DNA from: Acidobacteriota bacterium
Lineage (GTDB): Bacteria; Acidobacteriota; Terriglobia; Terriglobales; Acidobacteriaceae
Direction of reading: 5' to 3'
Length of the DNA stretch: 64,000 nt
NCBI GenBank assembly: GCA_021792795.1
Contig: JAJYUB010000003.1
Span: forward strand, 1-64,000
Notes under the pieces: model-generated
What the model was told of the DNA's origin: nothing
The model's database searches: none
Seen by the model: only the letters and a program-made list of their open reading frames with translations
In this document: one piece after another, positions 15,589 to 54,852 of the stretch
How positions within the stretch are numbered: the stretch's first letter is position 1
Layout: each line of letters begins with the position of its first letter
Made by a program: the position numbers and the translations under genes

Positions 15589-17004
15589 TTACTGGGAGGA
15601 AAGCAGGGCAGACGGAGACGCGGCAGACGCTGTCTCGATCTGGGACTTCGCCTGTCGTTTCGCTCGATACATATCGGCGTCGGCCCGCGCGCACAACGAG
15701 TCGGCTGTCTCGCCATCGTCCGGATACACGGCCACCCCGATGCTGGCTGACATGCGCAACTGCAAATGCCGAACGGCAATCGGCCGATCCAGTTCCAGTT
15801 GAAGTTTTTCCGCCAGAATTCTTGCGCCGTCCGGCTGCAGGATGTCCGAGACGAGAACTGTAAATTCATCTCCGCCAGAGCGCGCAAGCGTGTCCGCTCT
15901 TCGGACCACTTTGCCCAGGCGCAATGCAGTTTCCCGCAAAACCCCATCCCCAACGGCATGTCCGTGCAAGTCGTTAATCTGTTTGAATCCGTCCAGGTCT
16001 ACCACCATGACCGCTGCCCGTGTGCGGTTCCGTTCCGCGCGTTCCAACATGTTGTTCAGGCGGTCCTCCAGCAGTCGCCGGTTTGGCAGGCCTGTCAGCG
16101 CGTCGTGTAAGGCAAGATGCTCGGTGCGCCCGATCTCTTCTTCCAGAAAAGTCAGCAAAATGCCAATGGCAATAATGAATTTCGGAAGGTCCCGGACGGT
16201 TGCGCCAATTGTCAAATGTGGAACATACATAATTCGAATCAGCAGCCCGACTGGGAAAACGGCCGACCCGGCAACAAATCCAAACACTGCGGTCGCCACT
16301 CCGGTCGTCTTTCGCTCGAAATTCTGCCAGTATCGGATGCCCGCAACCAGATAAAGCCACGAAAGCGTTGCATCAATCCCGTATCCCATCTGATTTCGAT
16401 AGGCAAAAGCGGCAAGTAAAAGCGCAAGAAATAGGGCGGACGAAAAGCTGAAAACATTGTCGCGTGCAGAACGCTTTGCCCGCACCAGGAAATGCAACAG
16501 AGAAATGCTGGCCGCCATTACCGCCACTGCGGCGTAGTAGGGGAACGCCCTTTCAACATTCCAAACTGCCAGCGCGCTGTACGTCATCAGCGCGGTTGTC
16601 CATACCGTCATCAAAACCGGCTGTTCCGCAAATAGATCCAGGCGGGAAGCGGCGTGGATGAATGCGATTCCGGCCATGTCCAGCGCCAGCAGGGAAATTG
16701 TTGCAAGCACTGTTCCCCAGAAGCCGCTGCTCAGAATAACCAGATGCGCAGTGAAGTGCAACAGGACAAATGTCCAGGCAATCAGCCAATAATTCACCTG
16801 CTTTCGGGCATGGTTCCGCAGCATCGACCAGAAGACAAACTCCAGCGCGGCAAATGCAATCAGGTGCGGGATCGAAGAATAACGCAGCATAGGTAGGCCA
16901 TGGGCTATAGAAAAGAGTTTGTGCTCTATCATAGAGCCCCGCCAGCCGTCAGAGGGCAAATATTTTCTGGGAATCCAGGGGTTACATTCCTCGCAAACCG
17001 GCAT
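15589..17004 (-). CDS. Membrane-bound diguanylate cyclase (GGDEF)
   Basis: Predicted to make cyclic di-GMP from two GTP. The first 290 residues contain about eight hydrophobic helices forming an unassigned membrane sensor; the GGDEF domain fills 300-460. The active-site motif is canonical (SGGDEF, GGDEF at 377-381), and the product-inhibition I-site is present as RRAD (368-371) exactly five residues before it, so feedback inhibition is expected. NDLHGHAVGDGVLRE is the usual helix upstream. No EAL or receiver domain is present. Translation might instead begin at the internal ATG near 16932 (MIEHKLFS), closer to the first helix. Confidence 0.9.
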   Translation of the reverse strand: MPVCEECNPWIPRKYLPSDGWRGSMIEHKLFSIAHGLPMLRYSSIPHLIAFAALEFVFWSMLRNHARKQVNYWLIAWTFVLLHFTAHLVILSSGFWGTVLATISLLALDMAGIAFIHAASRLDLFAEQPVLMTVWTTALMTYSALAVWNVERAFPYYAAVAVMAASISLLHFLVRAKRSARDNVFSFSSALFLALLLAAFAYRNQMGYGIDATLSWLYLVAGIRYWQNFERKTTGVATAVFGFVAGSAVFPVGLLIRIMYVPHLTIGATVRDLPKFIIAIGILLTFLEEEIGRTEHLALHDALTGLPNRRLLEDRLNNMLERAERNRTRAAVMVVDLDGFKQINDLHGHAVGDGVLRETALRLGKVVRRADTLARSGGDEFTVLVSDILQPDGARILAEKLQLELDRPIAVRHLQLRMSASIGVAVYPDDGETADSLCARADADMYRAKRQAKSQIETASAASPSALLSSQ

Positions 17005-18241
17005 AGATCGCCAGCCCGGAAGTCAAAACTGTGACACCGGCCACGATCCATCGATAGATGCCGGACAGTCGATGGCCCGGGGGCAAGGCTCGAATGGCCA
17101 GGATCACCAGAAAACCGAGCACCATGGGCAGTAGGAACGCATTCATGACCTCAACCCATATGGTTAGCGCCACCAGGTCGGGGACGGCGGCTACCATGAC
17201 AGCGCCCGCCAGCACGCCGATGGTAAAGACGACATAAAACCACGGGGCCTCCAATGGATTGTGTTCGAGCGAGTGTTTGTAACCGGTTACCTCGCCAAAA
17301 CCCCACGCAGCGGCCAGCGAGACCACCACAGAGGCAATCATCGCCGCTCCAACGACGCCAAGGCTGAAGAGCAATCGCCCCATGGCCACTCCCATAAATG
17401 GAGTTAGCGCATGGGTAATGTCGCCAATGGTGTTCAGGCTCGCGCTCGGATTTACTTTTCCTATGGTCGCCGCGGTCGAGACCAGGACGGCAGCCATCAC
17501 CAGTTGCGTAACCACGGCGCCCACGCCCGTGTCCCAGCGCGCATCGCGATAGTGTTCGGGGCGCAGCCCTTTGTCGGCGACCGCGGACTGCTGGTAGAAG
17601 ATCATCCACGGCATAATCACCGCCCCAATGTTGGCTGAGACCAGATAGAGATAGGCCGGTGAAGACAAGGGAGCATGCAGCACGCCTGCCGCCAGGTCAT
17701 GGACGCGCGGGTGGGCGGCAACTGCGACCCAGAAAAAGGCGAACTCAAAAAGCCCCAGGGCAATGGCCACTCGCTCCACGCGGCGGTATGACCCAGTCCA
17801 CACCACAAACAACAGAAAGGCGGCTGCCAGGCTCAAACTGATGCCACGCGGCACCCCGAAAAGTTGTCCCACAGCCGCCACTCCGGAAAATTCCGTCAGC
17901 AACGCCCCGATGGTCGCCACCGCCAGACCGATCACAGAGATCCAGGCCCAGCCCGCGCCAAATGTCTCGCGGATCAGTTCGCCGTGGCCCTTGCCAGTGA
18001 AGATCCCTAGTCTGACGGTCAGGTCTTGCACCACAAAAAGGACTGGCATCAAGAGAAACTGCAGCAGCAGCAGGTGGTATCCCCACTGTGCGCCGCTTTG
18101 CGCAGCTGTGATGATGCTGCCGACATCGGTATCGGCAAGCATCACCACAAGGCCGGGACCCATCACAGCCAGGAAGAGTTGCCAGCGCTTTGGGAGTCGG
18201 GAAAAGTTGGATACAGGGACGTTTTTCACAAAAGAAGCCAA
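16982..18241 (-). CDS. NRAMP-superfamily divalent metal transporter with non-canonical site
   Basis: A 419-residue protein of 11 helices with the LeuT-like NRAMP fold: MGPGLVVMLADTDVGSIITA, then QSGAQWGYHLLLLQ, matches the helix-1 region of MntH. The metal-binding motif differs: canonical DPGN is D-V-G-S at 39-42, preceded by an extra acidic D37. On helix 6 the usual MPH is MPW (210-212), so the Asp and Met are kept but the Asn and His are lost. The ion may differ from Mn2+/Fe2+. The C-terminus overlaps the diguanylate cyclase open frame by 23 bases on the same strand, so the two may be co-transcribed. No Mn riboswitch was recognised upstream. Confidence 0.8.
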   Translation of the reverse strand: MASFVKNVPVSNFSRLPKRWQLFLAVMGPGLVVMLADTDVGSIITAAQSGAQWGYHLLLLQFLLMPVLFVVQDLTVRLGIFTGKGHGELIRETFGAGWAWISVIGLAVATIGALLTEFSGVAAVGQLFGVPRGISLSLAAAFLLFVVWTGSYRRVERVAIALGLFEFAFFWVAVAAHPRVHDLAAGVLHAPLSSPAYLYLVSANIGAVIMPWMIFYQQSAVADKGLRPEHYRDARWDTGVGAVVTQLVMAAVLVSTAATIGKVNPSASLNTIGDITHALTPFMGVAMGRLLFSLGVVGAAMIASVVVSLAAAWGFGEVTGYKHSLEHNPLEAPWFYVVFTIGVLAGAVMVAAVPDLVALTIWVEVMNAFLLPMVLGFLVILAIRALPPGHRLSGIYRWIVAGVTVLTSGLAIYAGLRGM

Positions 18242-18412: not shown

Positions 18413-18448
18413 TGTGACAAACGGCACACATTTCGTCTTTTTTATAAG
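18413..18448 (+). promoter_or_regulatory. CRP/FNR-family-like site and -10 box upstream of the Usp gene
   Basis: TGTGA-CAAACG-GCACA at 18413-18428 matches nine of ten arm positions of the TGTGA-N6-TCACA consensus. A TATAAG hexamer at 18443-18448 follows at a distance compatible with an activator overlapping the -35 region. The Usp coding start is about 270 bases downstream, a long leader, so assignment to that gene is tentative. Confidence 0.4.
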
Positions 18449-24235: not shown

Positions 24236-24259
24236 AGCCGATGACGCAACCGTTCGGCT
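24236..24259. terminator. Weak hairpin between convergent genes
   Basis: AGCCGA (24236-24241) and TCGGCT (24254-24259) form a six-base stem with a 12-base loop in the 32-base gap between two convergent genes. There is no T-run, so termination is only suggested by position. Confidence 0.25.
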
Positions 24260-27200
24260 ATGCGCGCGTACCGCTATCGACCAGCTTTGGCTGAAAATTG
24301 ACGTTTCCCGCGCGAGGCACTTCTTGCGCCGCGATGACTTGTACGGGTTTCTCGTGCAGCAGCAACTCCGTCGCTCGCACGCGAGGATCGCTGTGGAACC
24401 ATCGTTGAAAGGCCTTGTCCGCCAGCAGGTTTGCAATTGCCAATAACGACATGCCCTGGTGATGCGCCATCCACGACCGCACTAAGGTATATCGCGCTCC
24501 CTTTTCATGTTGCGTGCTGTCGGAATAATCCGCCGATTCGTAGAAGCCAAATTCTCCCAGCCAGCCCAGCTTTTCCATTCTGCGCAGATTGGCCAGCGCA
24601 TGAACGGGGTCGGCTTCCAGGGCCAGTACGGCAGCGTACGGCGCGATGACGAGGGAACCTTCCGGCGGCGGATTGATCGCCAGCGTCGGCACGCCGAACG
24701 CATGATACTGATAGTTTCCTTCCGCGTCGCGCTGGCTATGGCTGGCCTCGGAAATTCCCCAAGGCATGCGCGCGCGGGCCACATATTCTCGCTGGGCGCG
24801 CACCGCTCCCGGCAACGACTGCGCCAGCAATGTGTCCGGCGACGTCTGCATCCAGAGTGTCGGCATCATGTACTCAAACATGGTGCCGGACCATGACAAC
24901 AACACAGGATTGCCGTCGATCATCGTGGTCTTGCGCCCCACTCTGAACCAACTGTCCTGCAACGCGTCGCCCTTCGCAATGGCGAGGAAAATGGCGGTGC
25001 GCGCCTCGGAAGCAAGCAGGTCATAGCAGGAATCCAACTGTCGGTCCTTTTCCGTGTCGTAGCCGATTGTGAGCAGGCGACGATAGGGATCGACCAGGCC
25101 CCGATAGTCCGTTGCTTGGAACATGCGTTCGCCGATTGCCGCGATGGACTTGAGGTTCTCGATCAGCGCGGCCAGCCGCTTTTCGCTTTCAAGCAGAGCA
25201 GAAATCAACTCGTTCGCGAGTCCACCATTTTCCGGCGCGCCATCGTTCGCTTTTTGCGCGCAGGCGGATCGCAATTCCCGGCATATGTTCAACGAGTTTT
25301 CTGGCGTATAGAAATCGAGTGGACGATTTCCGATGGCCCCCTCCGATTCGATGAGCGTCGAAAATTTTGGCAGCAACCACGGTAGATAATTTGCGACGAA
25401 ACTCACAATGGCCTGAGCGCGCGTTGCGGCTGCGATCGTCTTCACGGAGTCAGAAGCCAACTCCAGCGTAAGAAGCTGCGCCAACCATGCTTCGGACAGC
25501 GCTTTCAGGTCCGCGTGCAATGCCGATTTTATTTTCGCCTCGGTAGAGGACGGCGTCTTCGCCTCCATCGCAATGTCGAGCAAGCCTTGCCGCAGCGGGG
25601 GTAGCATCGATGTCTCCAGCAACTCCAGTGTTCCCATGCGCAAGCTGCAGAGCGAGGCCAGAAAATTGCCGCTGTCGACCGTCGAGGCGATGTAAGGGCG
25701 GATGGGTTCAAGGGTCGTCGTCGAGTGCCAGTTCAGCAAATGTCCCTTCCACTTGGGAATTTGGTCGAGCGTGCGCAGGTTCGCAAGCGTCTGGTCCACG
25801 TATTCCGGCAGTGTCAGGTACCCAAGAATCACGGCAGCCTGGCGCGCATTCAACTGCAGCCCCGCGTTCGTCGGCGAGACGCGCAAGGCTTCGCGGTGCC
25901 CCTCTTCCTGCACATTGTCCGGCACCAATCCATGGTTGCCTTCGGCGGAATACTGCGCAAAATACCGCCAGGTACGCCATGCAATTTTTCGAAGGAACCG
26001 CGCATCGGCATCGGAAAGGTCCACTTCCACATGTGAAGACCGATTCAACCACCACGTGATGGGCTTGGCCAGTGACCAAAGGACCAGGACGGGCAAGGCC
26101 CACGGCAACGCGGTAGGACGCACCGACACGACAAGAATCAGCAGCACAGCCGAGAGCAGCGGGACCAGTCCCATAGTGATCTCGACCGGCGTCCGTTTGC
26201 TCGCTCCCGCTTCCGCCTCCGCCGCGGTTTCCCATTCCAGGAGTCGCTTGCCCGTGACAAAACTTCGGACCAGGGACCGCACGATGGCGTCGAACATCAG
26301 AAGGGTTTGATGGGCCAGCAAAGCGAAATTCAGGGCGGTCGAAAACAGCAATACCAGCGAATCGCGGAGCGCCTGGCGGACATATCCACTCTGCTCCGCC
26401 ACGCTGGCCCGTACCAGGGAGAATAGAAACTGAACAGCCACCGGAATAATCAGGATCAGCAGCGTTGCCAGCGTCCAGTAGCGGGCGCTGCCGGGTAGCC
26501 AAAGCCATCCGGCAACCAGCAGCAGGAACGTTGCGGGCTCAACCAGACTGCGCCTCAAATTGTCGAAGATCTTCCACCTGGAAATATTGGAAGTAGGATT
26601 TTGTACCAACTGGCCGGAATCATTGGGGACCCGTCCAAGCAGCCATCGCAGGATCTGCCAATCCCCGCGTACCCAGCGGTGTTTCCGGCGATTTTGCGCA
26701 CTGTAATGCGACGGATAATCGTCCATCACTTCGACATCGGTCAGCAATCCCACGCGGGCGTAGGCTCCCTCGATTAAATCGTGGCTCAACAGGGAATTCT
26801 GCGGGAAGCGACGGTCCAGCACGGTGTGCAGTATTTGAATCTCATAGAGACCTTTGCCGGTGAAGATGCCCTCGCCGTACAGGTCCTGATACACGTCGGA
26901 GATGGCCCGCGTATAAATATCGAAGCCTGTCTGGCCGGAGTAAATCGCGGCAAGTCGTGAGCGCGCCACGGAATGCACGGCGACGCCAACCCGAGGCTGC
27001 ATCAACCCATATCCCTGGGTCACGATCCTTCTTTGCGGATCGAGGATGGCGCGGTTCAACGGATGCGCCATCGCTCCGACCATGCGGTGCACAGAATCGC
27101 GCGGCAATTTCGTGTCCGAATCCAGCGTCAAGACGTACCGCATTCCCTTCAGGATGGCGGGATCGCCGGCTTTGAATGGAAAACAATCCATGCCGCCCAT

Positions 27201-28709
27201 TGCCAAACGATTCAGGTCCAGCAATTTTCCTCGCTTGCGCTCCCAACCCATCCACACTCCCTGCCGCGGATTGAACACGCGATGGCGATGCAGCATCAGG
27301 AAGGCGCCGCTGTGCGCGCCTGCATAACGTCGGTTTAGATCGTCGATCAGTTGACCAGCCAGCAGCACCAGGGGATGAGTATCGCGCTCCAGCGGTTTTT
27401 CGACGGAATCCGGCAGATCGGTCAGCAGCGCATAGTGGACGTTCGGATCTTGATTTGCTAGGCTGCGGACTTCCAATGCATCGACCAGGTCGCGCACCTG
27501 CTGCTCGTTCAACAACAACGTTGGGACGGCCACCAGAGTTTTGCAATCGTCTGGAATGCCTTCAGAGAAATCGAGTTTCGGCAGCGGCTGCGGCTTCAGA
27601 ATTGCGCTGATGGTGTGGTTCATCAATTCCACCGCGCCTTGAGATACCGGCAAAAGTAGAAGCAAAAACGCGAAGGCCAAACTTCCCAGCGGATTGTACA
27701 GGGGTACCAGCGGAAGGATGATCGCAGCCATGGCCACCAGCGCGATGGTTTGGATCCCGCCGATATAGAAATCGTCCGGGTAGGCGCGCAGAACGGTGCG
27801 CGCGCGGTCCAGCAAGCGAGGATGGAAATCGCAGCGCTTTCGCAGCTCGTTCAGGCCATCTCCGATCAGGTAGTGGCCGATATGAGAACAACGTGTCGTG
27901 ATGCGCTCGTTGACGTTAGGTTGCTGCGACGAATTGCGCGCCATCGTCAGCGCCATGTTCGCAACCTCGACTTCATTCAATGGAGATCGCGCCGCCACCT
28001 TGGCGACTGCAATCCGGTACATGTCGCGGCTCTCGAAATCCATGCGCGCATACGTGCCCGTTGGATCCTGGCGAAGAATGTCCTCGAACGGGACCAGGGG
28101 TTCCAGAATGTTCGACCACACCGGCAGGCTGACCTCATGCAGGCAGAGTAGCGCTGCATTCAGGGCGGCATCGCTGGCCGGCAAGTTGCTGAATGCTCCT
28201 GAGGCCTGCGCTAGAATTTCTTCCAGCAGCGCCAGTTTCAGAATGACCGGGAAAGTCCACAGTTCTCGAAGACTGAGCGGTTCTTCGGCTTGAAATCCCT
28301 TCAGGAAGCTGGAGAGACCCGGTAAGCCCCACTGATATTTCGCCGCTTGCAACAGGGCCTGTGCGACGCCAAGAATTCTCGGCGCTTCGGTCCCTGTGAC
28401 GCTGCGCGCAAACGGCAACCTGACCAGGATGCGCAACGCACTCTGGATCTCGATCGCGGAAGACCGCAACAGCCGCGTGCTGCCTTCCAGCCGCTGGATG
28501 CCGGGCGATTTCTCTTCTCGCTCTGCCGGTTGCCGCGCCCGGATTTGCTCCTCTGTATAACGCGCTAGCGCAAAGGCCGAAGCCACCGCCAAAAGAGTTT
28601 GCTCTTTGAATTGCTTCGTGCTGGAGTGTTGAGCCAGCATCGCCTGGCGGCTTGCGAATGCGCGCCCTTGCGCGCTCAGATCATGGCCAATCGTGACGGG
28701 AGAGTTCAT
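24258..28709 (-). CDS. Short cyclic beta-1,2-glucan synthase-like protein (GT84 plus glycoamylase-like domain)
   Basis: A 1483-residue membrane glycosyltransferase related to NdvB/Cgs. After a 300-residue N-terminal helical region come two membrane helices (about 318-360) and a GT84 domain with VLTLDSDTKLP (526-536), GYGLMQPRVGVAVHS, GEGIFTGKGLYE (612-623), EVMDDYPSHYS and RRKHRWVRGDWQ (674-685), all typical of NdvB. More membrane helices follow (725-765, 785-805, 845-875). The C-terminal part, about 905-1455, is the glycoamylase-like domain (NHGLVPDN, GEFGFYESADY, HHQGMSLLAIAN). Full-length Cgs proteins continue with GH94 phosphorylase modules that control chain length; these are absent and the protein ends naturally. 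Its ATG overlaps the stop of the ABC exporter gene upstream (ATGA). Confidence 0.85.
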   Translation of the reverse strand: MNSPVTIGHDLSAQGRAFASRQAMLAQHSSTKQFKEQTLLAVASAFALARYTEEQIRARQPAEREEKSPGIQRLEGSTRLLRSSAIEIQSALRILVRLPFARSVTGTEAPRILGVAQALLQAAKYQWGLPGLSSFLKGFQAEEPLSLRELWTFPVILKLALLEEILAQASGAFSNLPASDAALNAALLCLHEVSLPVWSNILEPLVPFEDILRQDPTGTYARMDFESRDMYRIAVAKVAARSPLNEVEVANMALTMARNSSQQPNVNERITTRCSHIGHYLIGDGLNELRKRCDFHPRLLDRARTVLRAYPDDFYIGGIQTIALVAMAAIILPLVPLYNPLGSLAFAFLLLLLPVSQGAVELMNHTISAILKPQPLPKLDFSEGIPDDCKTLVAVPTLLLNEQQVRDLVDALEVRSLANQDPNVHYALLTDLPDSVEKPLERDTHPLVLLAGQLIDDLNRRYAGAHSGAFLMLHRHRVFNPRQGVWMGWERKRGKLLDLNRLAMGGMDCFPFKAGDPAILKGMRYVLTLDSDTKLPRDSVHRMVGAMAHPLNRAILDPQRRIVTQGYGLMQPRVGVAVHSVARSRLAAIYSGQTGFDIYTRAISDVYQDLYGEGIFTGKGLYEIQILHTVLDRRFPQNSLLSHDLIEGAYARVGLLTDVEVMDDYPSHYSAQNRRKHRWVRGDWQILRWLLGRVPNDSGQLVQNPTSNISRWKIFDNLRRSLVEPATFLLLVAGWLWLPGSARYWTLATLLILIIPVAVQFLFSLVRASVAEQSGYVRQALRDSLVLLFSTALNFALLAHQTLLMFDAIVRSLVRSFVTGKRLLEWETAAEAEAGASKRTPVEITMGLVPLLSAVLLILVVSVRPTALPWALPVLVLWSLAKPITWWLNRSSHVEVDLSDADARFLRKIAWRTWRYFAQYSAEGNHGLVPDNVQEEGHREALRVSPTNAGLQLNARQAAVILGYLTLPEYVDQTLANLRTLDQIPKWKGHLLNWHSTTTLEPIRPYIASTVDSGNFLASLCSLRMGTLELLETSMLPPLRQGLLDIAMEAKTPSSTEAKIKSALHADLKALSEAWLAQLLTLELASDSVKTIAAATRAQAIVSFVANYLPWLLPKFSTLIESEGAIGNRPLDFYTPENSLNICRELRSACAQKANDGAPENGGLANELISALLESEKRLAALIENLKSIAAIGERMFQATDYRGLVDPYRRLLTIGYDTEKDRQLDSCYDLLASEARTAIFLAIAKGDALQDSWFRVGRKTTMIDGNPVLLSWSGTMFEYMMPTLWMQTSPDTLLAQSLPGAVRAQREYVARARMPWGISEASHSQRDAEGNYQYHAFGVPTLAINPPPEGSLVIAPYAAVLALEADPVHALANLRRMEKLGWLGEFGFYESADYSDSTQHEKGARYTLVRSWMAHHQGMSLLAIANLLADKAFQRWFHSDPRVRATELLLHEKPVQVIAAQEVPRAGNVNFQPKLVDSGTRA

Positions 28710-30553
28710 CGGTAGCTCGCTGCCTGCATTTCAAACATTTCCGCGTACAGGCCCCCGTGTCGAATCAGTTCTTCGTGGGTCCCTTCTTCAGTCAAAACGC
28801 CGTGGGAGAGGACAACGATGCGGTCGGTCATCTTGACGGTCGAAAAACGATGGGAAATCAACAGCGCCATTTTTCCTTTTGTCAGTTCCGCAAAACGCTG
28901 AAAGACTTCCTGTTCGCTGCGCGCGTCCAACGCCGCCGTCGGCTCATCCAAAATCAACAGTTGCGCATCCCGCAGATAGGCGCGCGCCAATGCCATCCGC
29001 TGCCACTCCCCGCCGGAAAGATCGACCCCACCCTCAAAGCGTCGTCCCAGTTGCTGCTCGATCCCTCCTGAGAGTCGCCCAATCACCTCGTCCGCGAGGC
29101 TCATTTGCGCTGCTGCTTCGATCCGGTCCAGCCGATCGCGCTCTTCAATGCGGCCCACTGCGATGTTGTCGCGTGCCGTCATCTCATAGCGCATAAAATC
29201 CTGGAAGATCACTCCAATCTCGTGACAAAGATCCTCCATGTCATAGTCGCGCAGATCCACGCCGTCGATCAGGATTTGCCCGTCCGTCGGGTCATATAAA
29301 CGTGTGATGAGCTTTACGATCGTAGTTTTTCCCTGGCCATTTTCCCCAATCAGCGCCACCCGTTCTCCGGGGCGAAGGCGGAAGTTGAAGTCCTTCAGGA
29401 CAAGCCGCGTGGTCCCGGGGTAGGCGAACGAGACATTCCGGAACTCGACCCCCTGTCGTATCGGGCGCGGAATTTTTATGGCGTTCGGCTTCGACCTGAC
29501 AGCAGGTTCCATGGCAAAAAAACCAAGAAGATCGGTCAGGAACAAGGCCTGGTCGGCAACGCCGGAAGCATTCACGAAAATCTGCTGCAGATTGGCGCTG
29601 ACTTGCAGAATGGCTGTCGTCAATATTACCAGGACAGCGATCTCAAAACGTCCGCGAATCGTGTCCCAGAGCACCAGAGCGTAGGCGCTGTAATATCCCG
29701 CAGTGGCAAGCAAAGACAAAAACGTTCCAGCAGCGAGCTTGCGTTTGGAGAGATCGACATTCTGATCGAAAATGGTGTTCGCCATGCCGCTGAAGCTCTC
29801 GATCAAGAAATCGCGCAGCCCGAAAAGCTTCAGCTCTTTCGCCGCTTCTTTGCTGCCGCCAAGGTCCCGCAAATAATCCATCTTGCGCCGCAGCGGGGTC
29901 TGCATGAAATTCTTGGCGTACCCGAGGAATGCAAAGTGGCTTTCTCCCAGCAAAGCTGGAATGGTACCAACGATCAACAGCAACAGCAGCCAAGGAGAAT
30001 ATTTGGCGATTAACAACGACAAAGAAATGGTCGTCAACACCAGTTGGATCAGAGTGCCAACCATCTGGATCATGGCGATCCGGTCCGTCGCCTGTGCCTT
30101 CGCCCGCTCCAGACGATCGTAGAAATCGGGGTTCTCGAACGCAGTGATGTCGAGTTTCGAGGCATGTTCGATGACGCGAACGCTGATGTGTTGCAGATAA
30201 AGATCGCCGAGCAGGCTGTCGCAGAACCCCACGCCTCGGCTCAACAAGGCGGCAAGCGAGGCAAGCGCGAATTCCAGAACGACAATCCACCAGAAAAATT
30301 GCGGCAAAGCCGTGTGCTGGTGCCGAACCATGACAATGGCGTTAATCAGCCAGCGGGAAACCTCCAGGATCGCCACTGGCATCAACGCCAGCGCCACTCG
30401 CAAGGCCATCGACCAGATGACCGTCTTCGGCCCGCATTCCCACACCATGCGCATCACGGGAGGGATGTTGCGCATCGCGCTCAACCGTGACCGCCACGTG
30501 TCCCCGTACGATTTGTTGGTTGTAGTTTCTGTCACCGCTGGCCGACAACGCAT
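28706..30553 (-). CDS. ABC exporter (fused permease and ATPase)
   Basis: A 615-residue half-transporter of the exporter type: six membrane helices in the first 330 residues and one nucleotide-binding domain after 365. Walker A is GENGQGKTT (403-411), the signature is DLSGGEWQRM (511-520) and Walker B is LLILDEPTAA (532-541), with H-loop ISHRFSTV. It works as a dimer in the inner membrane. Its stop overlaps the start of the glucan-synthase-like gene by four bases, so the two are translated together; in rhizobia the glucan exporter NdvA is the partner of NdvB, making glucan export the leading hypothesis. An internal ATG near residue 27 could be the true start. Confidence 0.88.
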   Translation of the reverse strand: MRCRPAVTETTTNKSYGDTWRSRLSAMRNIPPVMRMVWECGPKTVIWSMALRVALALMPVAILEVSRWLINAIVMVRHQHTALPQFFWWIVVLEFALASLAALLSRGVGFCDSLLGDLYLQHISVRVIEHASKLDITAFENPDFYDRLERAKAQATDRIAMIQMVGTLIQLVLTTISLSLLIAKYSPWLLLLLIVGTIPALLGESHFAFLGYAKNFMQTPLRRKMDYLRDLGGSKEAAKELKLFGLRDFLIESFSGMANTIFDQNVDLSKRKLAAGTFLSLLATAGYYSAYALVLWDTIRGRFEIAVLVILTTAILQVSANLQQIFVNASGVADQALFLTDLLGFFAMEPAVRSKPNAIKIPRPIRQGVEFRNVSFAYPGTTRLVLKDFNFRLRPGERVALIGENGQGKTTIVKLITRLYDPTDGQILIDGVDLRDYDMEDLCHEIGVIFQDFMRYEMTARDNIAVGRIEERDRLDRIEAAAQMSLADEVIGRLSGGIEQQLGRRFEGGVDLSGGEWQRMALARAYLRDAQLLILDEPTAALDARSEQEVFQRFAELTKGKMALLISHRFSTVKMTDRIVVLSHGVLTEEGTHEELIRHGGLYAEMFEMQAASYR

Positions 30554-30709
30554 CTACATAGAAGAGTCAGGGATATTTTCAACCACGCAAGAACAAAGTC
30601 AAGCAATTCCGTGGTGCAATTGACGATGGGATGCTGTGGGTCCTGTTACCACCAGCTTAGATGAAGATGCCGATTTTTTGTTTGCCTTCTTCCAATTGAA
30701 GGCATTCTT

Positions 30710-32539
30710 ATGGAATCACTCAATATGGCGCAACGACCGATTGAATCCTGTGGCGTGATTGGCGATTTGCACACCGTGGCTCTGGTAGCGACGGACGGCA
30801 CGATTGACTGGTGCTGCATGCCCCAGTTTGACTCGCCCAGCGTGTTTGCTGCCTTGCTGGATGAAAATAAGGGCGGCCATTTCAAACTGGCGCCGGAACA
30901 AGCCGGGACCAACCGCCAGATGTATATGCCGGAAACCAATGTGTTGCTCACCCGCTTTCTGCGCCCGGAGGGCGTCGGCGAAGTCATCGACTTTATGCCG
31001 GTACGCGAGGACAAAAGGCAGCAGAGCGAATCGGTCATGCACGAAATTGTGCGGATCGCGAGGGCTGTCCGCGGAGCGGTCCGTTTCCGCCTCGAATGCG
31101 CTCCAGCCTTCAATTATGCCCGCACGCCTCATCGGGCTACCTCAATCGAAGGAGGAGTTTTATTCGAAACGGAAGAAGATCGCATGGTGCTGCTTGGCCC
31201 CGGCGAATGGCAAATTGAGGGTGGCGTCGCGACTCTAGACTTTACGTTACAGCCTGGCGAAACCGCCGAGTTTGCGTTGCGCTACATCACCCAAGAAAAT
31301 GCCGACGGCATCAAGGCGCCCATCGATGGAAATCGTTTGATGAACGAAACCCTCGCATTCTGGCGCGAGTGGCTTTCCCAGTGCAAATATGAAGGCCGTT
31401 GGCGAGAGACCGTTCTTCGCTCCGCGCTGACGCTCAAATTGCTGACCCATCATCCTACCGGCGCGATCGTCGCCGCGCCCACGTGCAGCCTGCCCGAGGA
31501 AATTGGCGGGGTGCGCAACTGGGACTATCGATATACCTGGGTGCGCGACGCCGCTTTCACCGTCTACTCGCTTGTAGGTCTTGGCTTCCCAGATGAGGCG
31601 ACCGCGTTCATTGAATGGCTGGCCAAGCGGATCCATGAAGCGACGGGCGCTCAAGGCCCCTTGAATACGATGTATAGCATCGACGGCGTCAGCGATCTGC
31701 CTGAGTTTACTCTTGACAACCTGGAAGGCTATCGAAATTCGCGGCCCGTCCGTATCGGCAATGCCGCTTCCAACCAATTGCAATTGGATATCTATGGCGA
31801 GATGATGGACGCGATTTATCTCTACGACAAACACGTCTCTCCAATCTCCTATGATCTGTGGATGCGCGTCCATACGGTGCTGGTTTGGGTGGCGGAAAAT
31901 TGGGGCCAGCCCGACGATGGCCTGTGGGAAGTGCGAAGTGAACGCCGGCAGTTTGTGTATTCCAAGTTGCAATGCTGGGTCGCTCTGGACCGCGGCATTC
32001 GCCTCGCCAGCCAGCGCAGTCTTCCGCTTGACCGTGTCAAGTTGGAGACACAGCGAGATCGCATCTTCGCCTCGATTATGGAAAATGGCTGGGACGAAGA
32101 GCAGCAAAGTTTCGCGCAATCCTACGAATCGAAATCGCTGGACGCGAGCAGCTTGATGATGCCTATCGTTAAATTCATCGCGCCGCGGGACCCGCGCATG
32201 CTCAGCACCATCGATCGCACCATGGAGAAGCTTGTCTCCGATAGCCTGGTCTATCGATATGAACTGGATGGCGAACTCGCAACCAAGGATGGGCTGAGCG
32301 GGCATGAGGGCACATTCAGCATGTGTACCTTCTGGCTGGTCGATGCGCTGGCGCGCGCGGAACGCCTTGATGAAGCGAGATTTATCTTCGAAAAAATGTT
32401 GAGCTACGCCAACCACCTTGGACTTTATTCTGAGGAGATCGGCGCAACCGGCAGTGCCCTTGGCAACTTTCCGCAAGCATTTACGCATCTGGGGCTTATA
32501 AGCGCTGCTTTGCATTTAGATGAAAAATTCCGGAGGTAG
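30710..32539 (+). CDS. Glycoside hydrolase family 15 glucoamylase-like enzyme
   Basis: A 609-residue cytoplasmic protein without a signal peptide. [20 protein letters not shown], then [19 protein letters not shown], is the N-terminal beta-sandwich of bacterial GH15 proteins; [20 protein letters not shown] starts the (alpha/alpha)6 barrel. [20 protein letters not shown] carries the general acid Glu, and [20 protein letters not shown] near 575-594 carries the general base Glu. The family covers glucoamylases, glucodextranases and trehalases. Together with treZ and treY downstream it would act on alpha-glucan or trehalose. The gene is divergent from the ABC exporter across 156 bases and leads the treZY operon. 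Confidence 0.88.
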
Positions 32540-32569
32540 ATGTCATTTCCCAAGCAAACGAATCGATGA
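32540..32569 (+). CDS. Nine-codon mini-ORF between GH15 and treZ
   Basis: Directly after the GH15 stop, ATG 32540 opens a frame encoding MSFPKQTNR and stopping at TGA 32567-32569, which overlaps the treZ ATG (32566) as ATGA. GGAGG at 32532-32536 precedes it closely, while treZ itself has only a poor ribosome site. This arrangement could couple treZ translation to the upstream GGAGG through termination-reinitiation. The peptide itself is unlikely to have a function. Confidence 0.4.
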   Translation: MSFPKQTNR

Positions 32570-34452
32570 TCCCTGGTGTTCGCAAGAAGTTATGGACGCC
32601 GACTTTTGGGCCGGACGTTCAACGAGATGGATGTTTGTTTCGGCTATGGGCGCGCCCTGGAGCGAAGATTGAATTGATTCTCGACAGCGAGCCGGCGCGG
32701 CCACCAATTGCCATGTCTCCGGACGAGAACGGAATCTATCGCGTCCACGTCGCTGGCGCGGGTCCCGGCACGCGGTACTGGTTCAAGGTCGATGGAGCGG
32801 GGCCGTTTCCCGATCCGGCATCACGCTTTCAGCCAACGGGCGTACATGGTCCCTCGCAGGTCGTTGCGCCAGCCAGATTTCTGTGGAAGGCCAGCGACTT
32901 CTGCGCGCCATCGCTGCGAGAGCTGGTCATGTACGAAGTTCACATCGGTACGTTCACGCCCGGTGGAACATTTCTTGCGCTGATCGACAAGCTCAACGAC
33001 CTGCAACAATTGGGCATCAACGCAATCGAACTGATGCCGATCGCAGATTTCGCCGGCGAATATAACTGGGGCTACGATGGCGTCTCGCCCTACGCGCCTT
33101 CCCATAGTTACGGCACTCCGGATGACTTTCGCAGACTGGTGGACGAAGCCCATTCCACAGGAATTGCCGTCTATCTCGATGTCGTCTATAACCATCTCGG
33201 CCCGGATGGAGCCTATCAATCGGTCTTCGCTCCGCAATTTTACACACGCAAACATAAAACACTCTGGGGCGACGGGTTGAATTTCGACAGCGAGGGCCAA
33301 GACATGGTCCGTGCATACTTCATAGAGAGCGCTCTGGCGTGGATCTACGATTATCGCGTGGATGGATTGCGCGCCGATGCCACGGATACCATTTGCGATA
33401 ACAGCAAGCTGCATTTTTTAACGGAGCTAACGGAGCAAGCGCATCAGGCTGCGCACTCGCTCGGAAGGGAAGTGCTTTTGATAGCGGAGGACGCGCGGAA
33501 CGAGCGCAAAGTCATCCTTCCGGTCGACCAGGGCGGCCATGGATTTGACGCCGTGTGGTCCGATGACTTCCATCACCATATGCGACATCGTCTTGCTGGG
33601 GACAGTGACGGCTATTACCACGACTTCGATGGGACGACAGAGAGCATCGCCAAGACCATTGAGGATGGCTGGTTTTTCACCGGCCAATTCGCCGGCTTTC
33701 ACGGACATGCTCGCGGAACAAGCCCGACAGGGTTGAGCCTTGCGTCGCGCGTCTTCTGTATTCAAAACCATGACCAAATCGGCAATCGTGCCTTCGGCGA
33801 ACGATTGTCCTCTCAGATTTCCTGCGCAGCCTACTGCGCGGCCAGCGCACTGTTGCTGTTGTCTCCGGAGGTCCCGCTGCTATTTATGGGTCAGGAATGG
33901 GCGGCGCCAGGGCCGTTTCTTTTTTTCACAAACCATCACGATGAACTCGGCCGCCTTGTCACCGAAGGCAGGCGTAAGGAATTCGCGCGTTTTTCCGCGT
34001 TTGCAGATACTGCGAATCATGACGCCATTCCTGACCCCCAAAAGATTGAGACATTTCGCCGCAGCAAGCTGGATTGGGACGTCCGACAAGGCCCTGAACA
34101 TGCACGGTGTTTGCAATGGTATCGGACACTGTTACAGATTAGGAGACAGCTATTGCACCGTGCAAATTTTCAGGCATGTCGGGCGTTGAATGAAAAAACG
34201 ATCGAATTGCGATGGAAATCAGTTGACGGAAATTTCTCCGCCATTGTGGCCCTTGAGGGCCCGGCTGCCGTCAGCGAACAATCATGGCGCGACATGGCGA
34301 TGGTACTGGTCAGCGAGGATGCCCGTTTTATGGTGAATGCTTGCCGTGTCGACTGGCAGCCTGGCGTGGGCACGCTGTCCTTTGAGCGAGCGGGGGGGGC
34401 GCTGCTCGCTAGCGGCGATCTCGCTCGTATCGTGGAAGAACGGCCACAATGA
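32566..34452 (+). CDS. treZ: Malto-oligosyltrehalose trehalohydrolase
   Basis: TreZ cleaves the alpha-1,4 bond next to the trehalosyl end of malto-oligosyltrehalose, releasing trehalose. The 628-residue GH13 enzyme begins with an N-terminal CBM48/isoamylase-like domain (RLWARPGAKIELILDSEP, GTRYWFKVDGAGPFPDPASR). Catalytic elements are VYLDVVYNHLG (202-212), GLRADATDT with the nucleophile D271, LLIAEDARNE with acid/base E308, and QNHDQIGNR with D403. ATG 32566 overlaps a mini-ORF stop. The stop overlaps treY by four bases. No signal peptide is present, so it acts in the cytoplasm. Confidence 0.93.
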   Translation: MIPGVRKKLWTPTFGPDVQRDGCLFRLWARPGAKIELILDSEPARPPIAMSPDENGIYRVHVAGAGPGTRYWFKVDGAGPFPDPASRFQPTGVHGPSQVVAPARFLWKASDFCAPSLRELVMYEVHIGTFTPGGTFLALIDKLNDLQQLGINAIELMPIADFAGEYNWGYDGVSPYAPSHSYGTPDDFRRLVDEAHSTGIAVYLDVVYNHLGPDGAYQSVFAPQFYTRKHKTLWGDGLNFDSEGQDMVRAYFIESALAWIYDYRVDGLRADATDTICDNSKLHFLTELTEQAHQAAHSLGREVLLIAEDARNERKVILPVDQGGHGFDAVWSDDFHHHMRHRLAGDSDGYYHDFDGTTESIAKTIEDGWFFTGQFAGFHGHARGTSPTGLSLASRVFCIQNHDQIGNRAFGERLSSQISCAAYCAASALLLLSPEVPLLFMGQEWAAPGPFLFFTNHHDELGRLVTEGRRKEFARFSAFADTANHDAIPDPQKIETFRRSKLDWDVRQGPEHARCLQWYRTLLQIRRQLLHRANFQACRALNEKTIELRWKSVDGNFSAIVALEGPAAVSEQSWRDMAMVLVSEDARFMVNACRVDWQPGVGTLSFERAGGALLASGDLARIVEERPQ

Positions 34453-37367
34453 CGGACCGAAGAAGTGTCAGCGCGACCTATCGCCTGCAATTTACAAACA
34501 AGTTTGGGTTTGCCGACGCCGAAGCGATAACTCCCTATCTCCACAATCTCGGCATTAGCCATATCTACGCTTCACCAGTGTTTGAAGCGCGGCCTGGGAG
34601 CCTCAGTGGCTACGATACCTGCGATTTTTCCCGGATCAGTCCGGAACTTGGCGGGGAAGAAGCCTTCCACTCGCTCGTGAACGCGCTGCACCGCAAGGGA
34701 ATGGGGCTGGTCCTCGATTTCGTCCCCAATCACATGAGCGCCCATCCCCAGTGGAACCGGTGGTGGCGAAGCGTCTTGGCCAACGGCCCGTCTTCTTCCG
34801 TGTCGGAATATTTCGATGTCGATTGGAACCCTGTCAACTCCAACCTGCACGGCAAGGTCCTGCTCGCGATTCTTGAACGGCAATACGGCGACGTGCTCGA
34901 GTCGGGAGAAATGCGCATTGCATATCGCGATGGAGAGTTTTGCCTGCTGTACGGCGACTGCAATTTGCCGCTCAATCCGCGTCAGATGAAGGTCCTGCTT
35001 CGTCATCGGTGGCACGAAGCGGTAGAGTCAGTCGATATCGACCATGCAACACGCCAGGAGTTTGAAAGCATTCTGTTCCATCTGGACCACATTCCCAGCT
35101 ATCAAGAGGCAGGCTTGATGGCGCGCGCCGATCGCGAGCGCGAGACGGCCATTGTTACGCGCCGGTTGATTCAGGTGATGCAGGCAAGCCCGGCGCTGCG
35201 CGACCACTTGGGACGTGTGATAGAGGAATACAACGGTATCCCCGGTCGGCCAGAATCGTTCGATCTGCTGCATGAGCTTCTGGAGCAACAGCCGTATCGG
35301 CTCTCGTACTGGCGCACGGCAATGCAGGAAATCAACTATCGGCGCTTCTTCGACATTAACGACCTCATCGGCCTGCGTATGGAGTACGAACCGTTGTTTC
35401 GCACGGCCCACGTCAAGCTAATTGAGTTGGCAGAGAAGGGCGCCATCGACGGCGTGAGGCTCGACCACATCGATGGATTGCTCGATCCGCAACAGTATCT
35501 GTTACATTTGCGCGCCGTTACCGTAAAATCGGCGAGGCCATTGTATTTGATTGTCGAGAAAATACTGGCGCGGCAGGAATGGTTGAGCCCAAATTGGCCC
35601 GTCGATGGCGCTACAGGCTATGAATATCTGGCCCTGTTGAACGGGTTATGGGTCGAGGAACGAAATCTTCCAGAGATAGACCAAATCTATCTGCACTTTC
35701 GTGAACGAAGAAAGCCGGACCGGGATGCCGTTTATCATGCCAAGAAGTTGATCACAGCTTCCTCCATGGCGAGCGAGTTGAATGTCCTGGCGCACGAGCT
35801 GAATCTTCTTTCCGAAGAAAATCGCCGCAGTCGCGACTTCACTCTCGACGGACTGCAAGAGGCGCTGCGGGAGGTGGTTGCTTGCTTTCCCGTCTATCGC
35901 ACCTATATTTCCGCGCGCGGCTTCAGCGCCACCGACGAAATGGCCATTGACGAGGCAATCGGCCAGGCGAGGCGCAGGAATCCAAGTATCGATTATTCCA
36001 TCTTCGAATTCATCCGGGGCCACATCTGTCCTGTGCGGCAGCCGGAGGAACCAGAAGAAAACTTTGCGGAACGCCTCCGCTTTGCCATGAAGTTTCAGCA
36101 ATACACCAGCCCGGTGCAAGCCAAGGGCATGGAAGACACGGTGTTCTATCGCTACAGTCCGCTGGCTTCGCTGAATGAAGTGGGCACTGGGACCGGTCGC
36201 AGAGCGACCACTCCGCAGGAATTCCACGACGCTAACATCCATCGCATGGAACGCTGGCCAAATGCGATGCTGACAACTTCCACACACGATACAAAGCGCG
36301 GTGAGGATGCACGCATGCGCATCCATGTTTTGACTGAACTGCCGGAAGAGTGGAGATCCAATTTGCTGCAATGGTCTCACGTGAACGAAAGAGCCAAGAC
36401 CCTGGTGAATGGCCACCCTGCGCCGGATCGTGGCGACGAGTATCTGTATTACCAGACGCTGCTCGGGATGTGGCCTCCGCGGCAGAAGGTACCCGAGGAC
36501 GATACTGTCGCCCGGATGAAGGCCTTTATGAACAAGGCCCTGAAAGAGGCAAAAGTCCACACCAGCTGGGTCAATCCATCCAATGAATACGACGGCGCCG
36601 TGGAAAAATTTGCAGAACAGACCTTGCGCGGCGCATCTTCGTCGGCATTCCTCGCATCCTTCGTTCCCTTTGCAGAGCGAATCGCGGTCCTGGCGGCGTG
36701 GGGATCGATTTCTCAAATTGCCCTGAAGCTGATGAGTCCCGGCGTTGTCGATACCTACCAGGGCGGTGAGTTGTGGGACCTCAGCCTGGTGGACCCTGAC
36801 AATCGTCGCTCGGTCGATTACGACACACGCCGGCAGCGGCTGGATGCACTGACGAAGCACATTGTCGGTCCGCATCTCTCGCCTGAGAAACGGTCTCGCG
36901 CAGTCGCGGAGATTTGCGAATCCTGGTGGACCGGTGACGTAAAGCTGTTCTACGTTGCACAGGGACTGCGGCTGCGAGAGAAGGAGCCCGACTTGCTCCT
37001 ACGCGGCAGCTATTATCCTCTGAGTGCGGAAGGAGAGAATGCCGAGCATCTGGTTGCCTTCGCTCGGGAATACGACGGAAAAATTTTGCTGACCATCGCG
37101 GCGCGTTGGTTCGCATCTTTATTGTCGAAACCGGCGGCACTGCAGGACCTGGAGAAGAATCTTCAGCAGGCCTTCATCGAGATTCCCGCGGTTGAATCGT
37201 CGAATCGATCGACGCCAATGAACTTTACCAATGTTCTGACCGGAGCGGCTGTCCATGCCGAGAATGTAAATGGCATGATGCGGCTGCGCGCGGGAGAAGT
37301 CTTGGGTGCGCTGCCTGCTGTATGGCTGCTCGGCAGTCGCGAAAAGCGCGTCAAGGGCTGTCCGTGA
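34449..37367 (+). CDS. treY: Malto-oligosyltrehalose synthase
   Basis: TreY isomerises the reducing-end glucose of maltodextrins to an alpha,alpha-1,1 bond, giving TreZ its substrate. The 972-residue length is larger than the usual 700 to 900. SATYRLQFTNKFGFADA at the N-terminus, GLVLDFVPNHMS (86-97), GVRLDHIDGL (335-344, nucleophile D339), LIVEKIL (E370) and TTSTHDTKRGEDAR are all typical of the family. It overlaps treZ by four bases (ATGA), so both enzymes are translated together. With GH15 upstream, the operon makes trehalose from glycogen or maltodextrins, a desiccation and osmotic protectant. Confidence 0.93.
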   Translation: MTDRRSVSATYRLQFTNKFGFADAEAITPYLHNLGISHIYASPVFEARPGSLSGYDTCDFSRISPELGGEEAFHSLVNALHRKGMGLVLDFVPNHMSAHPQWNRWWRSVLANGPSSSVSEYFDVDWNPVNSNLHGKVLLAILERQYGDVLESGEMRIAYRDGEFCLLYGDCNLPLNPRQMKVLLRHRWHEAVESVDIDHATRQEFESILFHLDHIPSYQEAGLMARADRERETAIVTRRLIQVMQASPALRDHLGRVIEEYNGIPGRPESFDLLHELLEQQPYRLSYWRTAMQEINYRRFFDINDLIGLRMEYEPLFRTAHVKLIELAEKGAIDGVRLDHIDGLLDPQQYLLHLRAVTVKSARPLYLIVEKILARQEWLSPNWPVDGATGYEYLALLNGLWVEERNLPEIDQIYLHFRERRKPDRDAVYHAKKLITASSMASELNVLAHELNLLSEENRRSRDFTLDGLQEALREVVACFPVYRTYISARGFSATDEMAIDEAIGQARRRNPSIDYSIFEFIRGHICPVRQPEEPEENFAERLRFAMKFQQYTSPVQAKGMEDTVFYRYSPLASLNEVGTGTGRRATTPQEFHDANIHRMERWPNAMLTTSTHDTKRGEDARMRIHVLTELPEEWRSNLLQWSHVNERAKTLVNGHPAPDRGDEYLYYQTLLGMWPPRQKVPEDDTVARMKAFMNKALKEAKVHTSWVNPSNEYDGAVEKFAEQTLRGASSSAFLASFVPFAERIAVLAAWGSISQIALKLMSPGVVDTYQGGELWDLSLVDPDNRRSVDYDTRRQRLDALTKHIVGPHLSPEKRSRAVAEICESWWTGDVKLFYVAQGLRLREKEPDLLLRGSYYPLSAEGENAEHLVAFAREYDGKILLTIAARWFASLLSKPAALQDLEKNLQQAFIEIPAVESSNRSTPMNFTNVLTGAAVHAENVNGMMRLRAGEVLGALPAVWLLGSREKRVKGCP

Positions 37368-37393
37368 ACGCTGCCCGATCCATCTTGGTTCCG

Positions 37394-38824
37394 CTAGAAG
37401 GCTTCGGAGTTTCCCGAGTCGGGCTCGAATCCGACCATCTGCATGGCATTCGTAATTTCATTGTTGCGCATAAAGTAATTCCAGCAGAAGCCGGTGCGAA
37501 GGTTCTCCGCCATCATCACGCTGATTCCTAAATCTATGCCGAGTTGATCTTCTGCATACCAGTTGGACTGCGGTTGAAATGCGTCGATAAATCCATAGCG
37601 GGTCCAGGCTTTCTCGCCATATTTTTCCCGAATCGACAGCAAAACATGGGAACACTCGGCGGGCAAAAAAACCAACGAACCGGCCGTCGCGCACGGCACA
37701 ATGGTCCCGTCGATGCCGCCAAACTGCGGCGGCCCACCCCACACGCGATAGCCTGTAGGCGACTCTGAAGCCGTGATCCCCCACAGGTTCTGGTCCATCC
37801 AGTGAAACTGGCGGCCCAGTGTCAGGCAAAAGAGCTGATGTGCCCGCGTGGCCGCAATCGAATTCACGAAATAGTTGGCGTGTTCATCGCGCAGATGCCG
37901 AAAATCGCACCAGGCGTGCGCATACTGATGAATAAACAGCGGCGCTATGCCGCTGATGAATTCGATGCCGCCAAACTCAATAATTGGACGAGTCACAGCG
38001 TTCCAGGCGCTCGGCGGAATGGCATTGCGAGGTGCGCCGATCGCCATCAGCAGCATCGTCAGCATCTCGGCATAGACGTCCCAACGATATTTAATGAACC
38101 CCGACTCAGGCAGCCAGCCCATTGACAGCGTGTCGCTGCCGTTCAGCATCCATTGCCAATCCACACGATTGTACAGAGTGGTTGCCAGCGCATGGATGCG
38201 AAGATTGCCGCTGAAATACTGGCGGCATAGCAGAATGCCGGAGAGCAGCAGGGACGTGTCGATGGAGGAAAGCTCTGAGCCGAAAAGTCGCTCGCCACTT
38301 TCAATGTCCAGAAAGTGATACAAAAATCCATGCACATGCGGACACTGCTCCAGCAGAAACGCCAGCGTGGTCTCGACCCGCTGTTCGCAAACGGAGGGCG
38401 GCAAGTACTTGCGATGGGCCGCAATACACAGGGCACTCAGGCCAAACCCAGTGGCCGCGATGCTGGCAACGCGGCTGTCGGAGCGGCCGACCGCGGGAGC
38501 GTGGTCCCGTATCAGGCCCGTTGTCGGATGCGCCTGGTCGTAGAAATAGGCCACACCGCGGCCTTCCATGTCGTCCAGCATTGCATCGACCACAGTGGAA
38601 ATCTGGGTGAGCGGGCGATTGATGAATTGTCCCGGCGGGTGGGGATACTTTTTTGCGACTTCACTTTCTCGCTGCGGCGCCTTTTCTTCCGCCGGGGCAG
38701 TGGTCTGTGGCTGCGCGGGTGCTGATGCTTGCGCCATTCCCGGCAGTCCCATCGCCAGTCCGGCAGCGGCAGATGCCCCGACTCGGCGTATCAAATCGCG
38801 GCGTGTAACTTGCTTGTCGTTCAA
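37394..38824 (-). CDS. Tat-exported GH144-like (glycoamylase-fold) endo-beta-1,2-glucanase
   Basis: A 476-residue protein with a twin-arginine signal (TRRDLIRRVGASAAAGLAM), a proline-rich spacer and an (alpha/alpha)6 barrel of the glycoamylase type (PF10091-like). Family features are VASIAATGFGLSALCIAAHR, GFLYHFLDIESGERLFGSEL, SSIDTSLLLSGIL, GWLPESGFIKYRWDVYAEML, and FIHQYAHAWCDFR. Characterised GH144 enzymes cut linear beta-1,2-glucan; the match here is by pattern, so the substrate is a prediction. It is convergent with treY. The same fold makes up the C-terminal third of the glucan-synthase-like protein 9 kb away, supporting a shared beta-glucan theme. Confidence 0.75.
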   Translation of the reverse strand: MNDKQVTRRDLIRRVGASAAAGLAMGLPGMAQASAPAQPQTTAPAEEKAPQRESEVAKKYPHPPGQFINRPLTQISTVVDAMLDDMEGRGVAYFYDQAHPTTGLIRDHAPAVGRSDSRVASIAATGFGLSALCIAAHRKYLPPSVCEQRVETTLAFLLEQCPHVHGFLYHFLDIESGERLFGSELSSIDTSLLLSGILLCRQYFSGNLRIHALATTLYNRVDWQWMLNGSDTLSMGWLPESGFIKYRWDVYAEMLTMLLMAIGAPRNAIPPSAWNAVTRPIIEFGGIEFISGIAPLFIHQYAHAWCDFRHLRDEHANYFVNSIAATRAHQLFCLTLGRQFHWMDQNLWGITASESPTGYRVWGGPPQFGGIDGTIVPCATAGSLVFLPAECSHVLLSIREKYGEKAWTRYGFIDAFQPQSNWYAEDQLGIDLGISVMMAENLRTGFCWNYFMRNNEITNAMQMVGFEPDSGNSEAF

Positions 38825-54594: not shown

Positions 54595-54852
54595 CCCTCT
54601 ACGGGCCTTTGGAGGAATGAATGGCCGAATGCGGCTACCGAATCCGAAAACGGACCGGTCGGGGAACTTTAAATCGGTTCAGTATGCAAAAATTTGTCTT
54701 TCCGGAATGCATGCCGCAAAAGTCAGGATTTCATCCCGTAACACTTGAGCCGCGGAGCCAGAAACAGGTTTGAGACAGAAAAAATGCGGGTTCGGCATCC
54801 TATTCCGGAGGGGCCGAAATCAGCTCAGAATTCAGTACCAGGAGATGCCAAC

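Follow-up and report, generated by a model that had tools for sequence, protein, structure and literature searches.

The transporter gene and its metal-site motifs

We analysed a 64,000-nucleotide stretch of DNA from an Acidobacteriota bacterium of the family Acidobacteriaceae (GenBank assembly GCA_021792795.1, contig JAJYUB010000003.1, positions 1 to 64,000 of the forward strand; hereafter the window), in which a preliminary description had placed an Nramp protein at 16982-18241. An open reading frame (ORF) lies at exactly those coordinates on the minus strand, and its product belongs to the Nramp family, scoring 237.5 bits with the Pfam model PF01566 against a gathering score of 29.8. With the NCBIfam MntH/Nramp models the same product stays under every cut-off (101.3/430, 53.4/272.5 and 36.1/50 bits, the first of these being the MntH model). 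The ratio of nonsynonymous to synonymous substitution rates (dN/dS) is 0.04-0.06 in all four same-genus comparisons, in two of which dS exceeds 1 and is near saturation, and the gene is therefore under constraint. Translation may begin at GTG 18229 rather than at TTG 18241; the GTG is kept in all five aligned sequences of the genus and the TTG in four (L007 has CCG). The gene and the positions that matter for metal binding, matched to those of DraNramp, are as follows, TM denoting a transmembrane helix.

16982..18241, minus strand: Nramp-related transporter gene, 419 amino acids, TTG start at 18241, alternative GTG start at 18229
18116..18133, minus strand: TM1 metal-site motif D37-T-D39-V-G-S42, at the positions of DraNramp Y54, D56 and N59
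17891..17893, minus strand: TM3 Glu117, at the position of DraNramp E134, present in 94 of 94 clade members
17606..17623, minus strand: TM6 motif A207-V-I-M210-P-W212, at the positions of DraNramp A227, M230, P231 and H232
17495..17497, minus strand: TM7 Met249, at the position of DraNramp N275, present in 94 of 94 clade members
17141..17152, minus strand: TM10 E364-V-M-N367, at the positions of DraNramp Q378 and L381

Canonical Nramps read Y-M-D-P-G-N on TM1 and A-x-x-M-P-H on TM6, so that the transporter keeps the Met and Pro of the TM6 motif and exchanges only its His, for Trp. The preliminary description had given these differences as D-V-G-S for DPGN and MPW for MPH, which is precisely what the translation contains. 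How general they are was examined in an alignment of 184 rows (94 of the DTxVGS type, 13 canonical and 77 other), made without the window copies L003 and L005, the fragments L175, L181 and L182, and 16 identical duplicates. Clade rows were picked by identity of at least 45% to the query, the lowest value inside being 51% and the highest outside 36%; the motif definition D-T-[DE]-[VA]-G-S plus A-x-x-M-P-W returns the same 94 rows. Many of these come from 80 loci of a wide scan that used the patterns AVIMPWM and M[LM]ADTD[VA]G, and motif conservation among those loci is partly by construction because the patterns include the TM6 motif; all 15 distinct sequences from motif-free homology searches also fit.

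Across all 94 distinct clade sequences, TM6 reads Ala-x-x-Met-Pro-Trp, and the positions Y54, N59, E134 and N275 hold Asp, Ser, Glu and Met respectively. At Q378, 70 of them carry Glu, 21 Gln and three another residue or a gap; at L381, 93 carry Asn and one has a gap. The Asp two residues before the first motif, described earlier as an extra feature, is indeed there as D37, but it is common in Nramp-related proteins: this position is D or E in 21 of 21 clade, nine of nine sister-clade and seven of eight EleNRMT-like rows (Tyr in 11 of 11 canonical ones). As D/E stands in nearly all of these Nramp-related rows, we rejected it as a private character.

The metal-site Asp itself, at the D56 position, is Asp in 83 clade members and Glu in 11 (L039, L044, L066, L073, L080, L089, L098, L100, L107, L160 and L169), and on a tree that holds three of the 11 Glu rows the exchange falls at no fewer than three separate points. 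In DraNramp this Asp is reported to be strictly required for Mn2+ (PMC13060092), and its repeated exchange speaks for a protein that no longer transports metal and serves as a sensor, or for a carrier of another solute. We consider this improbable: the remaining site residues are invariant, the gene is under purifying selection, and the Fur-box-like sites upstream of clade genes, described below, point to a metal.

An Nramp-related clade outside canonical MntH

At the proton-pathway positions E124, D131, R352, R353, H232 and H237 the transporter has A, L, Y, V, W and Q, so that of the canonical TM3 and TM9 pathway residues and the TM6 His it keeps only E134 (the TM9 alignment being uncertain). 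The TM1 Asn and both TM6 His of canonical Nramps are replaced in every clade row.

An AlphaFold2 model built from 37 sequences (mean predicted local distance difference test score 82.5, predicted template modelling score 0.85) places its helix breaks at the two motifs, at residues 38-39 and 209-210. Nramp structures top the lists of fold matches, with EleNRMT first (Z 47.7) and DraNramp close behind (Z 45.7). EleNRMT is also the best sequence match among solved structures, at 170.8 bits, followed by ScaDMT at 59.6.

For phylogeny the 94, 13 and 77 rows were thinned to 21, 12 and 34, ScaDMT (281 residues) was excluded and the motif columns were removed, leaving a tree of 66 rows. The DTxVGS type forms a single clade (support 100/100) within the Nramp-related proteins, and a branch with support 100/98 divides it from canonical Nramps; one row, L129, sits next to the canonical clade on a very long branch. 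The DTxVGS clade joins (100/98) a clade of DNDAGA, DNDAGG-PWQ and ENDAPS types, and EleNRMT stands elsewhere, its own place supported at 94/66. The root was not inferred, and the two changes at Met230 are accordingly not readable as two gains.

As judged from its sequence, the transporter is thus a member of an uncharacterised and unnamed Nramp-related clade and not a canonical MntH; the clustering with MntH that would have spoken against the preliminary description is not seen, and the clade stands apart from EleNRMT as well. An ordinary H+-coupled MntH in which the motif changes are neutral would account for the shared Pfam family and fold and for the retained TM6 Ala, Met and Pro and TM3 Glu. 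We nevertheless rejected it as very improbable on the tree, on NCBIfam scores far under the MntH cut-offs and on the missing proton-pathway residues, the Asn and both His being gone from every clade row and the TM3 and TM9 residues absent. Compared with canonical MntH and DraNramp, the transporter shares the metal-site Asp, the TM6 Ala-x-x-Met-Pro and the TM3 Glu, and lacks DPGN, both TM6 His, the TM3 Asp/Glu and the TM9 Arg pair.

Nramp-related groups besides the NRMT-like proteins and MntG are described as uncharacterised, and Nramp-related proteins as lacking the canonical TM1 and TM6 motifs (PMC12873925). The DTxVGS clade, on its aligned sequences, is a partial exception to this motif loss, as the TM6 Ala-x-x-Met-Pro is retained. 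In the accessible parts of the literature consulted we found no description of the DTxVGS/MPW type, which may correspond to one of the groups shown without a name in PMC12873925 or PMC13060092. BfraNramp, of clade B, likewise keeps the Met and the TM3 Glu and is reported to be H+-independent, but it has DPGN and MPH (PMC12873925); MntG/YcsG (PMC10448178) is placed by the same work in a 'G-motif 3' group.

Transition metal or magnesium

Carriers of Mn2+ and Fe2+ are reported to have the signature DxxN-A/CxxM, and NRMTs the signature DxxG-TxxA/T (PMC8806188). The clade has DxxS-AxxM, a mixture of the two. Five 'core' positions are reported to govern Mg2+ selectivity in DraNramp (Y54, A85, M230, H232 and L381, with N275 coupled to Y54; PMC13060092); the transporter is changed at four of them (D, L, W and N at Y54, A85, H232 and L381), keeps M230 and has Met at N275. 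EleNRMT-like rows differ at all five. Sister-clade rows have D/E at Y54, W at H232 and Ala at L381 and mostly retain Ala at A85, and none of the 17 EleNRMT-like and sister rows has Met at 230. In EcoDMT this Met is described, from the M235A mutant, as a filter against Ca2+ (PMC8806188).

To determine whether clade genes are preceded by Fur boxes, about 200 bases before each gene were scored over 19 positions against the E. coli consensus, from which Acidobacteriota boxes may differ; distances are approximate, gene starts having been set from alignments. The positive control, E. coli mntH, scored 15/19. Sites of at least 13/19 precede 36 of 80 clade genes, whereas the same loci gave them in six of 399 upstreams of other ORFs and in 11 of 800 random windows; at 14/19 or more the counts are 16/80, 0/399 and 1/800. 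Some of the other-ORF controls are non-gene ORFs, and the random windows are mostly coding; a dinucleotide-shuffle control, free of both problems, placed 22 of 61 clade upstreams at p<=0.05 against 200 shuffles. The 36 sites are not independent, as the clade sequences are related. The best sites belong to L177, from the Coxiellaceae genome record G070 (18/19), and to the Rhodanobacter glycinis member L102 (17/19); genera with sites include Rhodanobacter, Thiomonas, Acidiphilium, Acidocella and Mangrovitalea. Among other Nramp-related genes, 45 of 76 of which had enough upstream DNA, a site was present in 1/45, and among canonical genes in 1/6, the one being the E. coli control; this comparison drew on 106 clade rows including duplicates, and many of the 45 genes are from Acidobacteriota.

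In Acidithiobacillus, every one of the 16 upstream rows (duplicates included) has TTGACA, and 15 of them have AAAC[AG]GGAATCATTC. These conserved elements fit the promoter described for the 'mntH' of that genus, which is reported to be Fur-regulated from a sigma70/Fur promoter (PMC2631029). That 'MntH' is probably a DTxVGS-clade member, to judge from the presence of the type in 17 of 17 genomes and from the kind of promoter; the source describes it as similar to proton-dependent MntH, and the likeness drawn here is by genus and promoter.

The retained Ala and Met, together with the Fur-box-like sites found in front of 36 of the 80 clade genes, favour import of Fe2+ and/or Mn2+, and the missing aligned proton-pathway residues predict independence from H+. 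On balance, then, we think the transporter is probably a LeuT-fold importer of a divalent transition metal that works without H+ co-transport, and Fe/Mn uptake is more likely than Mg uptake. The ion would lie between the broken TM1 and TM6 helices. Its putative ligands, by analogy with DraNramp (PMC10185341), are D39, the hydroxyl of S42, the carbonyl of A207 and the thioether of M210. E117, D37 and E364 may supply nearby negative charge, a role proposed for E117 from BfraNramp, whose TM3 Glu binds Mn2+ (PMC12873925). With W212 in place of His and no acidic or basic chain on TM3 and TM9, the metal would move along the membrane potential with no H+ co-transported. The sequence, the predicted fold, the clade and its conservation, the missing aligned proton-pathway residues and the clade's enrichment in Fur-box-like upstream sites are what the analysis shows; the metal, the direction of transport, the lack of proton coupling and the ligand roles are inferred from them.

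Several observations weigh against Fe2+/Mn2+ import. The window gene's own upstream region is without a Fur box (11/19, p 0.32), and scores for the Acidobacteriota members, 12 with the window gene counted, lie at 9-11/19; the Acidithiobacillus sites are also weak by score (10-13/19). The TM9 alignment behind the predicted H+ independence is uncertain, canonical rows being gapped at Y336 in the larger alignment. Altering Y54 (to D, with N275 changed), H232 and L381 of DraNramp is reported to give Mg2+-dependent growth despite Met230 (PMC13060092), and the transporter natively has D, M, W and N at Y54, N275, H232 and L381, although Trp is not among the H232 changes listed there. The organism's own genome (G000) holds four Nramp-family matches, the transporter and one each on contigs C74, C42 and C63. 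That on C74, whose neighbour is a DtxR-like regulator (named by eye), is a canonical DPGN/MPH MntH, so the genome already has one; those on C42 and C63 read DNDAGG/TTIAPW and DNDAGA/TTIAPWQ. A search of this genome found neither CorA nor MgtE nor ZnuA, and MgtA did not score over cut-off. Its Mg2+ uptake is unexplained unless an Nramp-related protein or another family serves, which makes a Mg2+ role for some Nramp-related protein attractive.

The DraNramp changes and the missing CorA, MgtE and MgtA lend weight to a broad NRMT-type Mg2+/Mn2+ transporter, likewise H+-independent, in which the retained Met would be no bar to Mg2+ as other selectivity positions are changed. EleNRMT, from Eggerthella lenta (PDB 7QIA/7QJI) and reported to be H+-independent (PMC8806188), is the closest structure by fold and sequence, with 29% identity over 382 aligned residues, and shares with the transporter the TM3 Glu and, at the DraNramp positions H232, A85 and L381, Trp, Leu and Asn. 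Most EleNRMT-like rows agree with the transporter at these three positions and also in having D at Y54 and a residue other than Asn at N275. The transporter, however, has DTDVGS and AVIMPW where EleNRMT has GNDAGG and TTIAPW (Ser for Gly, Ala-Met for Thr-Ala, and Asp for Gly at the -2 position), has Met where EleNRMT has Ala at N275, and falls in a separate clade. Two features of part of the NRMT group were not found either: there is no M-box, at gathering threshold, in the window (where Rfam gave no matches at all) or in the 26 of 80 scan loci covered, and no MgtE_N gene is adjacent, the genome's MgtE_N match sitting on contig C42. CorA is present in nine of ten proteobacterial carriers tested, and the gene was not found in four of ten genomes of its own genus (73-94% complete). 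With the Fur-box-like sites of the clade added, we regard an NRMT-type transporter as unlikely. The earlier suggestion that selectivity may differ holds in so far as the protein is not a canonical MntH, EleNRMT is its closest solved relative and altered positions coincide with those of Mg2+ selectivity in DraNramp (PMC13060092); the step from there to a Mg2+ transporter is the part that the signature, the neighbourhood and the upstream sites do not favour. As a separate observation, a fluoride riboswitch lies at 8313-8399 of L108, about 2 kb downstream of a clade gene.

A known protein of the phylum, Acp2977 of Acidobacterium capsulatum, is also Nramp-related; it is a NrmT beside a MgtE_N gene and is reported to rescue a Mn2+ transport defect fully but a Mg2+ defect only with low-millimolar Mg2+ (PMC4072509). 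Its MgtE_N neighbourhood suggests that Acp2977 is most likely of the DNDAGG paralogue type (for example L029 of G031). We rejected the transporter as its counterpart, the MgtE_N match being on contig C42.

Neighbourhood, distribution and implications

A second gene on the same strand lies immediately downstream.

15589..17004, minus strand: diguanylate cyclase frame (GGDEF), whose 5' end overlaps the transporter ORF by 23 bp, in an order kept in the genus

The overlap (16982-17004) joins the 3' end of the transporter ORF to the 5' end of the cyclase frame, not to its 3' region as first described, and use of an internal ATG within the cyclase frame would abolish it. Joint expression, proposed from the overlap, is possible, as the order recurs in each of the four distinct same-genus orthologues whose sequence extends far enough downstream (L008, which has about 250 bp there, is excluded). 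Outside the genus the only cyclase hit of the neighbour search was a GGDEF protein of L073, encoded on the opposite strand; apart from this match the window's flanking genes recur only in the genus, and no neighbour was widespread across the clade, whose gene was placed in 59 of the 80 loci, antisense shadow ORFs having disturbed gene calling. Between the transporter and a divergent universal-stress-protein gene, the inverted repeat TGTGACAAACGGCACACA (18413-18430) resembles a CRP/FNR-type site and is similar by eye in three of five same-genus upstream regions. Elsewhere the window carries a class II (B12-dependent) ribonucleotide reductase at 54745-58095 and, at 24258-38824, carbohydrate genes for two glucoamylase-like proteins, a GH15 protein with a trehalase-like N-terminus, an alpha-amylase-type enzyme and an ABC transporter.

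The DTxVGS type is present in 12 of 61 relatives including the own genome (at least 56% identity), and in six of ten within the genus. Sampled Acidobacteriota yielded it in one of 199, the window's own genome, and sampled Pseudomonadota in five of 200 including the bait genome (at least 52% identity). The best 80 of at least 552 stretches encoding a relative in the wide scan comprise 77 from Pseudomonadota, two from Acidobacteriota and one from Actinomycetota, and named acidophile genera are frequent among them. Seven Acidobacteriota members do not form one clade (approximately unbiased test, p-AU 0.0025; seven rows tested), making inter-phylum transfer likely, and the gene looks horizontally acquired in this organism.

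A search with the window protein found the type in all 17 Acidithiobacillus genomes (three of the copies being split or truncated at contig ends), and in six of these it is the only match to the query; a single Nramp match was confirmed with the Pfam model for G068 and G071. No full-length canonical-type match was listed in the 17 genomes, in which the short fragments G476:C139 and G477:C100 stay unclassified. In one genome of the genus the clade gene (G468:C1:1275576-1276774) spans two overlapping matches, probably a frameshift. Among 12 other carriers, the DTxVGS type is the only Pfam Nramp match in four.

A wider proposal, which we put forward tentatively and think rather less than even in its chances, is that this is a clade of Fur-controlled, proton-independent Fe2+/Mn2+ importers that replaces MntH in many acidophiles. 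On an NRMT-like scaffold, its Ala-x-x-Met filter would have arisen or survived independently of the DPGN/MPH Nramps, and D37 would share the essential role of the metal Asp, so that the latter could repeatedly become Glu. Features that canonical Nramps combine are uncoupled in the clade, which retains the TM6 Met, lacks the TM6 His, the TM1 Asn and the proton-pathway residues, and differs at several positions reported to exclude Mg2+. It bears on whether Met alone sets transition-metal selectivity and on whether the filter evolved more than once. Metal import without H+ would suit cells living in acid, and the clade suggests a route by which Fe2+ or Mn2+ could be imported there without the entry of protons.

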